A stretch of 40,123 nt of DNA from Pirellulales bacterium (lineage in GTDB: Bacteria; Planctomycetota; Planctomycetia; Pirellulales; JAEUIK01), in contig JAIESQ010000105.1 in NCBI GenBank assembly GCA_019745975.1, positions 1 to 40,123 on the forward strand, written 5' to 3'. Each line of letters begins with the position of its first letter. Position 1 is the stretch's first letter. The position numbers were made by a program, and so were the translations under genes. The notes beneath the pieces were generated by a model. The model saw only the letters and a program-made list of their open reading frames with translations, did no database searches and was not told where the DNA came from. Shown here in pieces: positions 1,564 through 7,683 of the stretch.

Positions 1564-2427
1564 CTACTCGGCTGCCAGACGCGGCAAGTAGTCGAGATTC
1601 TGCAAGATAGTGGTCGCTTCGGTAGAAAACTCGTCGAGCGACCATGCGACTCGTCGCGTGACGCTTTGCAGAGGCGGGGCGGCGTACACGAAACGCATAT
1701 CGTACTGTTCGTACAACTGCTGAAAGAATCGTTGCATCGCGAGCGGGCTGCTCGCTGGTGGAAAATGAGCCAAGACTTGGCCGACGTTCGGCGGTTCCGT
1801 ATCCGCGACAAGAAGCGCGATGGCTTCGTAGCGCGTCGTGACATCTCGCAGATCATTGCGACCTGCCAAGCGGCCCAAGACATCGTGATATCTGACAATT
1901 GCGTCGGAGATGCGTTCTCCGGAAAAAACAGCAATGTCATTTCGAGGACAACCCGATTCTTCGCGATTGCCTCGCAGCACTTGCAAGAACCCATAGACGA
2001 GCGCCGGATAAGCGATGTGCAAATTCGTGCAATCCCCCACGGCTTCTTCCATGCGATTCGTCAGGTTGCGAAACGCACCCAGGGTTCCCTTCAGAGAAAC
2101 GGCCACCACAGGGCCGACGCGGTCTTTGGCAACCACAACGTCCACTCCCTTGGTTTTCAGGCCGCCCAACACAGTTTGTTCGGCCGAGTCAGCAGCCGCG
2201 GGATCGTAAAGAAGACGCCACCGTCCGCCGCGCTGCTGGGACCTGAATGGAGGGTGAGGCTTAATATCCTCGGGAAAGAAGCCGCCCTCGACAACCAACC
2301 TGCAGGCGACGTACCAGTGCAACGGCCTGATATGACCCGAACCTTGATGTCCGGCCGTGTTTTCAACGAAGGCCGTGAGTGCCGTCCTTAGCCCAACCCA
2401 ACGACAGGCATCCCGTTCGTCAGGCAT
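1564..2427 (-). CDS. Putative type II restriction endonuclease
   Basis: A 287-residue protein that I cannot place in a named endonuclease family. Its ATG at 2427 overlaps the end of the methyltransferase gene by eight bases (ATGCCTGA), so the two are translated together; the open frame extends upstream, but only inside the methyltransferase coding region. Position, size and tight coupling to a solitary DNA methyltransferase point to the cognate restriction enzyme. From this start, residues 94-127 hold D96, then 'SLK' at 111-113 and E127, i.e. D-X16-SLK with E fourteen residues after the lysine. The S-x-K...E arrangement matches the relocated acidic residue of the Cfr10I/NgoMIV branch of PD-(D/E)XK nucleases. 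A conserved-looking block follows ('NLTNRMEEAVGDCTNLHI'). Base composition is lower in GC (30 of 60 at 1921-1980) than the flanking genes. Function is inferred. Confidence 0.6.
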   Translation of the reverse strand: MPDERDACRWVGLRTALTAFVENTAGHQGSGHIRPLHWYVACRLVVEGGFFPEDIKPHPPFRSQQRGGRWRLLYDPAAADSAEQTVLGGLKTKGVDVVVAKDRVGPVVAVSLKGTLGAFRNLTNRMEEAVGDCTNLHIAYPALVYGFLQVLRGNREESGCPRNDIAVFSGERISDAIVRYHDVLGRLAGRNDLRDVTTRYEAIALLVADTEPPNVGQVLAHFPPASSPLAMQRFFQQLYEQYDMRFVYAAPPLQSVTRRVAWSLDEFSTEATTILQNLDYLPRLAAE

Positions 2428-3874
2428 AGTGCCTCCATCGTCGCATGACCGAAATCCCATCAAGTAGGACGTCCCGGTCGCTCTTGCTCTGGGTGGCCGT
2501 CCGCGACAGTAACACGCGGCTGGCTTCGCCTGGTTCGAGCTTGAGCATGCCGCCCCCGAGCGGATGTCCCTCGATCTCACAGCTTAGCGTCGTGAGTGGA
2601 TCGGACCACATTCGCTGTAAATCTTGAGCGCGAAAGCCATTCGACATGCGCACGACGTGCACCGAATTTGTGGCTACACAATTGGCGGCGTTCAACACCA
2701 AGGAAGGCACTTCACCGCTCATGTAAGACAGGAATGCATCCGGGACATGCACCGAGGGAATCACATACCAAGGGTCTCGATTTCGACACTTAAACGTGCG
2801 ACGCGCCTCACAGCCAGCGGGCGTATCTAAGTAGTCGAGTATCGACTGGGGTAGCTCCTTCTTGGGACGCAATCGCAAGAGAAAGCAGGGCTCGTCACGC
2901 TTCCACCACCGCGCAACGGTCTCACTGGTAATCGTCTGTTCAATCAGTGAGCGACCGTTACGAATCGCCGGAACCAGGTACGACCGTGGGATTCTCAACA
3001 TCGATGCAACGGACGGACGCAAATGAAAAAAGTCGTTCGCGCCGCTGACGTAACCGATTCCGACTCGCGCGATTTCACCCAGTCGCACTGTGCCAGACGA
3101 TGCCGCCGACTGCTCGTAGAGCGAACGTACTTGTCGAGGAAGCAGAAACGGACGCAGATGCGAGTTCCAAGACAACCAGGCCTTGGTGCTCACGCGCTCG
3201 CCAGATTGCGGCGGGCGATCGCACGACGAAAACGTATCCATTTGCGTGAAGAGGATCGATGTGGTTCGCCCACCGTATCCCTCGCAGTAAAGTAGCCAGC
3301 AGTCTTCGGACAAGTCTGGAAAAAGTTTCTTCGCAACCGCGACTACCTGAACCAGCGAAAAGTGATCAAGACAATACTGTAACAACGGCGCTGCGTAAGG
3401 AGCGTGTCCAATCTCCGCCGGCGCAACAAAGGCCATGCGACCGCCTGGCTTGAGCAAACTAGCAGCGGCGACCAAGAACGGCGCCCACGACGATGTCAGT
3501 GCGCTAAAGTGCGCCCCGTGACGGGCGCAAAGCTCGAGCGCCGCGCGGCGAGTGCTACCCATAAACCGCTGATAACGGATGAACGGTGGGTTACCCGCGG
3601 CACATTCGAATCGCTCGACCGTGCGAGCCGCCCAGGAGAAGAAGTCGCCTTCATGAATCAAGGAGCCGGGTGCACGCTGATGAACCACCGCCGCTGCGCG
3701 GTGATCGTGCTCCACACCAACACTGTTGGAGTGAACCATCAAAAACCGACCGTCACCGCACGACGGATCGAGAAGTCGGTCCTTGGGGGAACCAACCGCC
3801 CACCTCACCAGCGACTGGACGACATGATCGGGAGTGTAATATGAGCCGAGCGATTTGCGTCGTTCGATATCCAT
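2420..3874 (-). CDS. Type II DNA N6-adenine methyltransferase
   Basis: A 484-residue DNA methyltransferase transferring a methyl group from S-adenosylmethionine to adenine. Visible motifs in order are: motif X 'LGSYYTP' (9-15); the SAM-binding motif I 'LLDPSCGDGRFL' (34-45); acidic 'GDFF' (76-79); catalytic motif IV 'GNPPFIRY' (94-101); and 'LKPGGRMAFVAPAE' further on. The remaining C-terminal half, with little recognisable, should hold the target recognition domain. The order and the NPPF tetrapeptide fit the gamma class that pairs with small type II endonucleases. The ATG at 3874 is chosen because GGGGG lies about seven bases upstream and the motif X region follows at once; a longer frame begins at 3934. 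It is coupled to the putative nuclease gene by an eight-base overlap. Recognition sequence unknown. Confidence 0.88.
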   Translation of the reverse strand: MDIERRKSLGSYYTPDHVVQSLVRWAVGSPKDRLLDPSCGDGRFLMVHSNSVGVEHDHRAAAVVHQRAPGSLIHEGDFFSWAARTVERFECAAGNPPFIRYQRFMGSTRRAALELCARHGAHFSALTSSWAPFLVAAASLLKPGGRMAFVAPAEIGHAPYAAPLLQYCLDHFSLVQVVAVAKKLFPDLSEDCWLLYCEGYGGRTTSILFTQMDTFSSCDRPPQSGERVSTKAWLSWNSHLRPFLLPRQVRSLYEQSAASSGTVRLGEIARVGIGYVSGANDFFHLRPSVASMLRIPRSYLVPAIRNGRSLIEQTITSETVARWWKRDEPCFLLRLRPKKELPQSILDYLDTPAGCEARRTFKCRNRDPWYVIPSVHVPDAFLSYMSGEVPSLVLNAANCVATNSVHVVRMSNGFRAQDLQRMWSDPLTTLSCEIEGHPLGGGMLKLEPGEASRVLLSRTATQSKSDRDVLLDGISVMRRWRHYA

Positions 3875-4011: not shown

Positions 4012-7000
4012 TCATGTCCCGCGGTTGTAGCCGTTGCCGTTGCCGCCGCGGCCGTAACCATTGCGCCCGGTGCCGCCGTTGCGACTGGGTTGCCGCAGTG
4101 GCGCGGCCAGCAGCTTCACGTGCCCCACGCCAAGCAGATCGTCGACGCGCGACCTCAATTCCGGAGAGACCGAAACCGCGATCCCGCTACACTCACTGTA
4201 GAGCTTCGAGCCATCGTCGAGCGCAAAAACCAGCTCCAGCGCGCAACTGCCGGGATAGCCGCGCAAGATTTCGTATAACTGCTCGACATGCCGGGGCGTG
4301 TGCCGCGCTTCGTCGAGCCGGATGAGCATGCCGCGCGTCATCCGTTCGGCGAGTTGATCCAGCGGAATCAGGTCGTTGACGATCAGATTCGCTTCGTCGC
4401 TGCCAGGGCGCTTGTCGATCGCGCCGCGGACCGCCAGGATCGCGTCGGCCTGCACCAGCGGCTCGAGGCGCGCGAAATCCTCGGGCCAGACGATCGAGCG
4501 CATGATCCCTTCAGCGTCCTCCAGGTCGAACATCGCGTACTTCGTGGCGGTACTCCCCGGGCGCGGATTCTTGGTGCGCTTGGTCACCAGGGCCGAAATC
4601 ATGCCCCCCAAGAGGACTTCGGTGCGGTGCGCGAGCGCCGCCGCCTCGACGGTCGTGTGCGTGCAATAGGTGCGCAATTGCCGTTCGTGCTCGGCCAACG
4701 GATGACTCGTAAGGTAGAAGCCCAGCACTTCCTTTTCGTGCGCGAGGTTCTGTCGCGACTCGAAGGCGGGCACGTCGGGCAAGGCCGGCGCAGCGGCCGG
4801 CCCAGTATCGGCATCCAAATCGAACAGGCCGCGTTGCCCCGCGCGGCGATCGGCCGCGGCCTGCGAGCCGGCTTGCAGCGCCCGCTCGACGGCGGCCAGC
4901 AACTGCGCGCGATGCCCGCCCAGCGAATCGCAGGCGCCGGCCTTGATGAGCGATTCGATCGCGCCGCGATTCACGACTGACGCATCGACGCGCTCGCAAA
5001 AGTCGAACAAATCGCGAAACGGCCCGCCGCTCGCGCGCGCTCGCACGATCGCCTCCGAGGCCGGCAACCCACACCCCTTGATGGCCGCCAGGCCAAAGTG
5101 AATCCGTCCATCGCGCACGCTGAAGTCGGGTTGCGACTGGTTGACGTCGGGCCCGATCACCACGACTTCCATCCGCCGGCAGTCTTCGATGTGTTCGACC
5201 AACGGGTCCTTGCGCTTGAAGTTGCGGTTCGACATATCGCCCGACAACAACGCCGCCATGAACTCGACCGGCCAATGTGCCTTGAGGTAGGCCGTCATAT
5301 AGGCGACCAGGGCGTAGGCGGTCGAGTGGCTCTTGTTGAAGCCGTAGCCGGCGAACTTCTGCACCAGTGCAAAAATCTCCTCGGCGTCGCGCCGCTTCAG
5401 TCCGTTGCCCACCGCTCCCCGGCAGAATTCCTCACGGTACTCGGCCATCTTCTCCTTATTCTTCTTCGAGATCGCCTTGATGCAGGTGTAAGCGCTCGAC
5501 AGTTCGATCCCTCCCAGTCGGTTCAAGAGCCGCATCACCTGCTCTTGATAGACCATTACGCCGTGCGTCTCTGCGAGCACCTCGCGCATCCGCGGATGTT
5601 TGTACTCGGGCTGTTTGCGGCCGTGCTTGACCTGGATGTAGTCGTCGACCATGCCCCCTTCCAGCGGCCCAGGGCGATAGAGCGCGTTGGTGGCGATGAT
5701 GTCGTGAAAGTGGTCGGGCTTCATCCGCTGCAAGAGGTCGCGAATGCCACCGCTTTCGAGCTGGAACACGCCCTTCGTCTCGCCGCGGCACAACAGCGCG
5801 AACGTTTCCTGGTCGTCGAGCGGGAACTTGTAGGGGTCGATCCGCACGCCAGTCGTCTGCTCGATCAGCTCGACCGCCTTGGCCAGGATCGTCAAGTTGC
5901 GCAGCCCCAGGAAGTCCATCTTCAAGAGGCCGGCTTTCTCGACATCCCCCATTTCCCATTGCGTGATGATTTCCTCTTTGCCGGTCACCTGCTGCAACGG
6001 CACATACTCGACCAGCGGCCGATCGGCAATCACCACGCCGGCCGCGTGCGTGCCGACGTTGCGCGCCAGCCCCTCGATCGCCCTGGCCAGATCGACCAGC
6101 TCGTGCACGTCGGCGTCCGATTCGTAGGCCTTGCGCAGGTCATCACTTTTCTTCAACGCGTCGTCGAGGCTGATCCCCAGCTCGTCGGGGATCATCGCCA
6201 CGATCGAGTCGGCGCGGGCCGACAGCGACAGCGCCCGGGCGACGTCGCGGATCGCCGCCTTGGCCGCCAGCGTGCCGAACGTGCCAATCTGCGCGACGTT
6301 CTCCTCGCCATACTTGGCCTTCACGTACTGAATGACTTCGGCCCGGCGATCCTTGCAGAAGTCGATGTCGATATCGGGGGCTTCCTTGCGGTTCTCGTCC
6401 AAAAAGCGCTCGAAAAGCAAGTCGTACCGCAGCGGACAGACATGGCTCAGCTCCAGGCCGTAAGCCACCAGCGAGCCGACGCCCGAGCCGCGCGCCGTGC
6501 ACGGAATGCCGCGCTCGTGGGCGAACCGCACGAAATCCCACACGATCAAAAAATAATTCGCGAAGCCCAGCTTGTTGATCACATCGAGCTCGCGCTCGAG
6601 ACGCTCGAGCACTGCCGGGGCGAGCCGGCCCTCGACGACGCGCTCGCTGTCACCCTCGTAGCGTCGCAGCAAGCCCGCCTCGCAAATCTCACGCAAATAG
6701 TCGGCCGAGCTCTTGCCCGCCGGCGGATCGTAGGTGGGAAAGTGCCGCTTGCCGAGCTCCAGGTCGATGTCGACCCTGTCGGCGATCTGCTGGCTGCGGG
6801 CGACCGCGTCTTCGAGCCCCGGAAACGACGCGTACATCTCCGCGGGGCTGCGCAAAAAGAACTGGTCCCCCTCCATCTTCAGGCGATTGGTGTCGGTGCG
6901 GAACCGCCCGGTGTTGATACACAACAGCACGTCCTGCGCGACCGCGTCTTCGCGCCGCACGTAATGGGCATCGCTCGTGGCCACCAACGGAAGACCCATG

Positions 7001-7683
7001 CGCTGCGCAACCTCGACCGCCCCTTCGAGCGCCAGCCGCTGCACGTCGACCCCGTTATTCTGGATCTCGATGAAGTAGCGTTCGCCGAACACCGAGTGGA
7101 ACCAGGCGGCCACCTCGCACGCTTCCTTGATGTTCACCTCGGGCGCTTGCCCGCGCAGGATCATCCGGCTGAACTCCCCCGATACGCAGCCGCTCAGGCA
7201 GATGATTCCCTCGCTGTGGGCGGCCAACAGCTCGCGATCGATCCGCGGCTTGTAGTAAAAGCCCTCGCGAAACGCGGCGCTCGCCAGCTTGATCAGGTTC
7301 TTGAAGCCGGTGCGGTTCTGCGCGAGCAAGGTAAGGTGGTAGTTGGTCTCTTCGTGCCGTTCGTACGAGCGGCGGAAACGGCTGTCGGGCGCGACGTACG
7401 CTTCGTAGCCGAGAATGGGATTGATCCCTCCCTCGCGGCAGGCCAGATAGAACTCGATCGCGCCGTGCAAGTTGCCGTGATCCGTAATGGCCAGGGCAGT
7501 CATGCCTTCGGCCTTGGCCCGCTCGACCAGGTCAGGGATGCGGCTCGCCCCGTCCAACAAGCTGTAGTGCGTGTGGCAGTGGAGATGTGCGAACGGGCGG
7601 GGCGTAGTTGCGCCAGTTGTGGCCGCGGAAGTGTCGGTCGTGGTGTTAGGAGCGGAAGCGGCAGCAGGAGCAGCGGCAGTCAT
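4012..7683 (-). CDS. dnaE: DNA polymerase III alpha subunit
   Basis: Replicative polymerase of 1223 residues, slightly longer than the ~1160 of E. coli DnaE. The PHP domain starts at residue 33 ('HLHCHTHYSLLDG') and keeps the family's likely metal ligands ('AITDHGN', 'GYEAYV', 'LSGCVSGE', 'SDAHY'). The polymerase core shows two catalytic aspartates in 'PDIDIDF' (around 432-436) and the third in 'KMDFLGL' (D587). Further on are the beta-binding region and an OB-fold ('VLLGGMISALVTKRTK') near 1010-1080. The first ~28 residues are Ala/Thr-rich linker. The last ~20 residues form a Gly/Asn/Arg tail that ordinary DnaE proteins lack. The PHP ligands look intact, so a proofreading-type nuclease is possible; that is inference from the family. 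The gene stands alone on the minus strand with short spacers on both sides. Confidence 0.97.
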   Translation of the reverse strand: MTAAAPAAASAPNTTTDTSAATTGATTPRPFAHLHCHTHYSLLDGASRIPDLVERAKAEGMTALAITDHGNLHGAIEFYLACREGGINPILGYEAYVAPDSRFRRSYERHEETNYHLTLLAQNRTGFKNLIKLASAAFREGFYYKPRIDRELLAAHSEGIICLSGCVSGEFSRMILRGQAPEVNIKEACEVAAWFHSVFGERYFIEIQNNGVDVQRLALEGAVEVAQRMGLPLVATSDAHYVRREDAVAQDVLLCINTGRFRTDTNRLKMEGDQFFLRSPAEMYASFPGLEDAVARSQQIADRVDIDLELGKRHFPTYDPPAGKSSADYLREICEAGLLRRYEGDSERVVEGRLAPAVLERLERELDVINKLGFANYFLIVWDFVRFAHERGIPCTARGSGVGSLVAYGLELSHVCPLRYDLLFERFLDENRKEAPDIDIDFCKDRRAEVIQYVKAKYGEENVAQIGTFGTLAAKAAIRDVARALSLSARADSIVAMIPDELGISLDDALKKSDDLRKAYESDADVHELVDLARAIEGLARNVGTHAAGVVIADRPLVEYVPLQQVTGKEEIITQWEMGDVEKAGLLKMDFLGLRNLTILAKAVELIEQTTGVRIDPYKFPLDDQETFALLCRGETKGVFQLESGGIRDLLQRMKPDHFHDIIATNALYRPGPLEGGMVDDYIQVKHGRKQPEYKHPRMREVLAETHGVMVYQEQVMRLLNRLGGIELSSAYTCIKAISKKNKEKMAEYREEFCRGAVGNGLKRRDAEEIFALVQKFAGYGFNKSHSTAYALVAYMTAYLKAHWPVEFMAALLSGDMSNRNFKRKDPLVEHIEDCRRMEVVVIGPDVNQSQPDFSVRDGRIHFGLAAIKGCGLPASEAIVRARASGGPFRDLFDFCERVDASVVNRGAIESLIKAGACDSLGGHRAQLLAAVERALQAGSQAAADRRAGQRGLFDLDADTGPAAAPALPDVPAFESRQNLAHEKEVLGFYLTSHPLAEHERQLRTYCTHTTVEAAALAHRTEVLLGGMISALVTKRTKNPRPGSTATKYAMFDLEDAEGIMRSIVWPEDFARLEPLVQADAILAVRGAIDKRPGSDEANLIVNDLIPLDQLAERMTRGMLIRLDEARHTPRHVEQLYEILRGYPGSCALELVFALDDGSKLYSECSGIAVSVSPELRSRVDDLLGVGHVKLLAAPLRQPSRNGGTGRNGYGRGGNGNGYNRGT

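Follow-up and report, generated by a model that had tools for sequence, protein, structure and literature searches.

A predicted Type II restriction-modification gene pair from a Pirellulales bacterium whose endonuclease is remotely related to XhoI

The window, a stretch of 40,123 nucleotides from a Pirellulales bacterium, contains a predicted Type II restriction endonuclease gene that overlaps the gene of a predicted N6-adenine DNA methyltransferase. The pair most likely represents a real and widespread Type II restriction-modification (R-M) family, unnamed in the annotations seen, which forms a branch of the XhoI group with a permuted active site. In the proposed mechanism, the methyltransferase would mark an adenine in a short site of the host DNA, and the 287-aa protein, as a Mg2+-dependent PD-(D/E)XK endonuclease, would cleave incoming DNA wherever that site is unmarked. 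Where the orthodox D...E-x-K arrangement has its acid, this protein would carry a serine (S111-x-K113), and the work of the missing acid would be done by an acidic residue of the next helix, more likely E128 than E127. This explanation as a whole, that of a Type II R-M pair whose endonuclease is a remote XhoI homologue with a relocated helix acid, is held with good confidence.

The endonuclease gene lies at 1564..2427 on the (-) strand, with an ATG start and the TAG stop included. The methyltransferase open reading frame (484 aa) occupies 2420..3874 on the same strand, and thus its end and the endonuclease start share the 8 bases 2420..2427 (-), as the initial annotation had stated; relatives overlap similarly. 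The reading frame also permits a longer endonuclease with a GTG start at 2580, and the ATG with its 8-base overlap agrees with the gene arrangement of the relatives. The pair is flanked by a gene at 4012-7683, presumably dnaE by the look of its sequence, and on the other side by a gene for a zinc-type dehydrogenase. The DNA of the pair occurs once in its own genome (7.0 Mb, 204 contigs). The dnaE surroundings of 19 relatives gave no match to the dehydrogenase or an ABA4-like gene, and since these loci extend about 1.5 kb or less past dnaE, no empty site is demonstrable in the 19 relatives.

The endonuclease family, here called clade A, is spread over distant phyla. A scan of species genomes confirmed 137 relatives among 171 candidate stretches, and the best 80 of the 137, which are the clade-A loci analysed here, come by record title from Planctomycetota, Pseudomonadota, Acidobacteriota, Chloroflexota, Nitrospirota, and others. 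One contig of a viral collection bears a clade-A endonuclease gene, and neither gene of the pair was matched in phage records. The distribution is patchy in the window's phylum, where full-length matches come from 2 of 392 genomes, one of them the own genome, and from 1 of 19 close relatives of the host (G400). A tblastn search of plasmids with the endonuclease matched 40 records, 30 of which are predicted conjugative or mobilizable. Eight matches span 80% or more of the query and are about 46-50% identical to it, and seven of these were retrieved (H8 was left out). Plasmids with such a pair include those of Methylorubrum extorquens CM4, Paraburkholderia terrae, and Cereibacter azotoformans. 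In all seven, the endonuclease gene is annotated as 'hypothetical protein' and lies downstream of a methyltransferase gene; two of the upstream genes are themselves annotated as hypothetical, yet match methyltransferase P0002 at 57%. Plasmid pNGR234a of Sinorhizobium fredii NGR234 (L022) has a partial endonuclease match only, among IS21 and IS66 elements.

The 70-row clade-A alignment and profile consist of 68 of the 80 genome loci, the window, and L104. L029, L039, L041, L043, L045, L049, L076, L077, L083, L085, L088, and L094 were left out by choice, because of doubtful starts, an internal stop (L085), near-duplication, or a position at the edge of a contig, or in order to limit the size of the set. 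Two PADLOC REase_II models match 40/70 and 38/70 members, respectively (E <= 0.01), and the PADLOC model PDLC03558 matched 0 of 294 genomes, with none among the controls either. The literature matches listed contained nothing on the clade-A family: the portion seen of PMC11473606, on Paracoccus R-M, has an HNH enzyme as its subject, and the motif in the portion seen of PMC11711589 is not tied to clade A.

The pairing itself is highly regular. In 78 of 81 clade-A loci, the endonuclease gene directly follows a methyltransferase gene of the same kind on the same strand, so that the adjoining endonuclease and DNA methyltransferase genes of a Type II R-M system are found in the relatives as in the window, and the view of the protein as a restriction endonuclease candidate with an adenine methyltransferase partner is supported. 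Two of the remaining three loci are contig starts; in L043, 4 kb of upstream sequence contains no methyltransferase match. In 70 of the 78 paired loci, an in-frame endonuclease start gives an overlap of 4-17 bases with the methyltransferase stop, a count that leans toward overlap because the start nearest to an 8-base overlap was picked. Endonuclease and methyltransferase distances are correlated over 79 pairs (Mantel r 0.612, reached in 0/2000 permutations), with host relatedness still contained in this value.

The partner methyltransferase has DPSCGDGRF before NPPFIRYQ and an M.Eco57I C-terminal domain. It matches PF22837 (2.5e-10), N6_Mtase (1.8e-7), the PADLOC Type II MTase model (5e-90), and M.TaqI (1.1e-7). 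Judged by its sequence, it is an N6-adenine enzyme of the M.Eco57I/TaqI kind, and it has the PF22837 and N6_Mtase domains and the NPPF motif in common with these gamma N6-adenine methyltransferases. Three distant plasmid relatives (L247, L248, L249; 27-31% identical) adjoin a larger second N-6 DNA methylase, unlike the window gene with its endonuclease neighbour, and their arrangement presumably recalls Eco57I-type systems. On a plasmid of Rhizobium sp. C104 (L250), a methyltransferase of the clade-A type (51% identical) looks solitary; the next gene annotated downstream of it lies on the opposite strand and is of the helix-turn-helix type.

The initial annotation had found no resemblance to any named restriction family, a view that profile comparisons revise, as they make the endonuclease a remote relative of XhoI. 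Searches of Pfam and NCBIfam gave nothing above cut-off for the single protein. The XhoI model PF04555 scores 13.5 bits (E 0.067), below its gathering cut-off of 25 bits, and matches 24 of the 70 clade-A members weakly at E <= 1 (best 0.017). Conversely, the 70-member profile matches an XhoI-type gene of the phylum at E 3.9e-7 (G077, where PF04555 gives 9.9e-78). By hhalign, where each E-value refers to a single comparison, the 70-row profile aligns to 9 XhoI-type proteins at 93.6% (E 2e-7; drawn from 11 PF04555 matches, L113 and L115 being unused) and to 8 further XhoI-type proteins from viral contigs at a probability of 69% (E 4.4e-5). Two sister clades are much closer: clade C (Gordonia, Rhizobium, and others) at 99.0% (4.6e-18) and clade B (L006, L007, Cryobacterium, Mycobacterium marseillense, and others) at 98.3% (1.2e-14). 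A joint set of the three clades (29 rows: 13/70 of A, 8/10 of B, 8/10 of C) aligns to the 17 XhoI-type proteins at 97.1% and E 5e-11 over 169 columns, and the homology spans the core and the C-terminal part. As far as the alignments tell, clades B and C bridge the gap between clade A and XhoI. Both have the same type of neighbour, with an N-6 DNA methylase annotated directly upstream in 7/8 clade-C plasmid loci (L127 is the one without) and 4/4 clade-B loci. The Pseudonocardia plasmid pBCI1-2 (L122, L131) bears a clade-B pair and a clade-C pair together. The XhoI-type proteins likewise have a methyltransferase nearby.

The active site was compared across these groups. D96 (2140..2142), S111 (2095..2097), L112, K113 (2089..2091), and E127 (2047..2049) are all present in the translation of 1564-2427 (-), and E127 stands 14 positions beyond K113 (K-X13-E), as had been described; the next residue is E128 (2044..2046). 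The described spacing of 16 residues between D96 and K113 also holds, and only its notation as 'X16-S' fails, since 14 residues separate D96 from S111. The motif alone proves little, because shuffles yield it by chance: among 20000 shuffled versions of the protein, 12 contain the exact form D-X14-[SC]-x-K-X13-E, 158 a looser one, and 11985 a very loose one (D...K...[DE]). The real evidence is conservation. D96, the predicted metal-binding aspartate, is present in 70/70 clade-A rows, as are S111 and the pair E127 and E128, although the counts for the pair are biased because NLTNR[ML]EE, which served as a search pattern, occurs in 68/70 rows; both acids are also kept in the 7 plasmid members obtained by plain tblastn. 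K113, the predicted catalytic lysine, is found in 68/70 rows (R in L037 and L071), and R125 in 69/70 (P in one). The common core of clades A, B, and C and the XhoI-type proteins is K93-x-x-D96, K113, and N121-x-x-N124-R125, in a joint alignment displaying 24 of the 70 clade-A rows as well as in separate ones. The N121-x-x-N124-R125 element (2053..2067, (-) strand) forms a helix start as in XhoI-type proteins and supplies candidate DNA-contact residues; this sharing suggests that some recognition contacts may be common to both groups.

Two positions distinguish the groups. Position 111, the usual acidic place of (D/E)xK, is serine in 90/90 sequences (70 A, 10 B, 10 C) and glutamate in 17/17 XhoI-type proteins, which supports the claim of a relocated acid. 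The choice of E127 for this acid stands less well. Conservation within clade A alone cannot separate E127 from E128. Position 127 is E in 97/97 sequences of A, C, and XhoI-type but G, A, or Y in 10/10 clade-B relatives, while position 128 is acidic in 107/107 sequences of all four groups (D in 10/10 of clade B). Clade-B and XhoI searches used patterns without the EE pair; 2 of the 10 clade-C rows came from EE-containing patterns. The clade-B helix was placed in the same register against clade A by hhalign, independently of MAFFT. XhoI-type proteins thus have the E of E-x-K together with the helix acid pair, clades A and C have the pair only, and clade B has only its second acid. Since 127 is non-acidic in clade B and 128 is acidic throughout, E128 is the better candidate, and the relocated catalytic acid is probably this residue, one past E127. 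A nuclease-fold protein that has no cleavage activity, for example a helper or regulator of the methyltransferase, would agree with the loss of the orthodox acid and with the change of K113 to R in 2/70 members. However, D96, S111, and the acidic residues are otherwise fixed, the gene holds the R position of an R-M pair in 78/81 loci, and its distances co-vary with those of the methyltransferase; an inactive protein is therefore considered very improbable.

The homology raises the question of specificity. XhoI cuts CTCGAG. The endonuclease could be a plain XhoI isoschizomer cutting the same site, a reading which overlaps the preferred explanation, as the latter leaves the site open, and which draws on the profile homology and on the shared K-x-x-D...K...N-x-x-N-R-x-x-E core. 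When measured against the PF04555 family, the protein has the profile homology and the N-x-x-N-R-x-E-E helix, but it stays at 13.5 against the Pfam cut-off of 25 and has S-x-K in place of E-x-K. The partners differ as well: clade A adjoins a methyltransferase with motif IV NPPFIRYQ, whereas XhoI-type loci (L105-L114, L251-L258) are accompanied by two other types, with an SPPYW motif in Planctomycetes and an NPPY(V/L/I)R motif in 6/8 viral-collection contigs. CTCGAG is the most depleted of the 64 hexamer palindromes in 728 kb of flanking sequence from 88 loci (of which L077 and L019 represent one and the same plasmid), and in the own genome it ranks third in depletion under a maximal-order model (189 observed against 269.7 expected). 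By contrast, a second-order model shows no depletion there (189 against 190.6), and eight Planctomycetes genomes that do not carry the system (400 kb pooled) are equally depleted (50 against 92.2, O/E 0.54, rank 1), so that avoidance was dropped as an argument for CTCGAG. With these observations on both sides, a plain isoschizomer is thought unlikely.

A second candidate site, CAGCTG, was rejected in the same way. It occurs 8 times in 400 kb of the own genome (G000; the 20-kb stretches L165-L184, 20 in all) against about 201 expected, but relatives of the same order without the system also nearly lack it (G395, 0 against 21.3; G408, 1 against 26.1; G397, 0 against 7.5; G404, 0 against 5.9; stretches of 20-60 kb each). 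The scarcity is weaker in the relatives G401, G402, and G393.

The predicted structure agrees with a PD-(D/E)XK nuclease. The AlphaFold2 model of the endonuclease, built from 70 sequences, has a pLDDT of 92.4 and a pTM of 0.92. It has an alpha-beta core in which D96 lies between strands 91-95 and 97-101, S111 and K113 lie on the following strand 105-115, and E127/E128 are on helix 119-139. This element order and the nearest solved folds, which are such nucleases, both point to the PD-(D/E)XK fold. Foldseek gave no match in the PDB at E <= 0.001 for the model, and BsaXI and BbvCI head its mixed list. The leading VIA-align rows are proteins that we take to be PD-(D/E)XK nucleases: NucC at Z 8.5 (3.7 A, 158) and BbvCI at 8.3 (3.9 A, 160), followed by BstEII (7.8), PspGI (7.4), PfoI (7.2), Kpn2I (7.0), AgeI (6.8), EcoRI (6.3), Bse634I (5.6), and SgrAI (5.2). 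A Z near 8 may reflect a common arrangement, and acetyl-CoA carboxylase at 6.0 marks the background. In the model of an XhoI-type protein (8 sequences, pLDDT 82.6), the core elements follow one another as in the clade-A model; the structural matches of this XhoI-type model are PspGI (Z 9.7), NgoMIV (9.6), BbvCI (8.8), and NucC (8.7), and Foldseek gave none at E <= 0.001.

These matches bear on the comparison with the CCGG family (Cfr10I, Bse634I, NgoMIV, SgrAI, AgeI, PfoI), which has the fold predicted for the endonuclease. NgoMIV and Cfr10I have a serine at the usual acidic place, and the initial annotation rightly likened S111 and the acid on the next helix to the permuted sites of such enzymes. 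As to the relocated acid, the endonuclease may work like the CCGG family, with its preferred acid one residue further on. Full membership would mean E127 as catalytic acid in the K-X13-E register and a site with a CCGG core. Several features speak for it, namely the K113-X13-E127 spacing, the serine at the usual acidic position in 70/70 rows, the structural matches to PfoI, Kpn2I, AgeI, BsaWI, Bse634I, and SgrAI (Z from 7.2 down to 5.2), and the closeness of the XhoI-type model to PspGI and NgoMIV. The family is described in a section of PMC6344858 by a PD...K...D/E active site and by R-(D/E)R, a recognition motif where the helix begins, and a PD-XXK-E variant is named in a part of PMC551604. 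The permuted order would fit the endonuclease in sequence and in the predicted order of elements. The recognition motif is absent, as residues 114-126 read G-T-L-G-A-F-R-N-L-T-N-R-M, with R120 and R125 having no acid between them, and by that test the endonuclease is not a member of the CCGG family. Moreover, the detectable sequence homology is to XhoI. PDB sequence searches with the single protein and the clade-A profile gave chance-level matches only and no CCGG enzyme, though many are in the PDB, and those with the XhoI-type and clade-C profiles gave no matches. Finally, position 127 is non-acidic throughout clade B, and because the distance from lysine to acid differs among the clades, the Cfr10I/NgoMIV spacing K-X13-E has no diagnostic value in this group. 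Membership in the CCGG family is accordingly judged to be improbable, and the preferred reading remains that of a remote XhoI homologue with its acid relocated to the helix.

If this reading is correct, more than 100 clade-A gene pairs, whose endonucleases are 'hypothetical proteins' in the plasmid records seen, would gain a concrete and testable function. Of the 40 plasmid records with a match, 30 are predicted conjugative or mobilizable, and such systems would shape gene transfer there; any new cleavage sites would also be of practical use as tools. XhoI, a textbook enzyme for whose type the PDB sequence search gave no solved relative, would gain many relatives with a different active site, on which the migration of catalytic residues could be tested among natural homologues. 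It is further proposed, tentatively and with somewhat less than even confidence, that the active site has migrated in nature within one homologous group, with XhoI at one end of the process and clade A at the other, accompanied by new cleavage specificities. In that case, the XhoI group would show the stepwise change from a PD-(D/E)XK to a Cfr10I-like active site.
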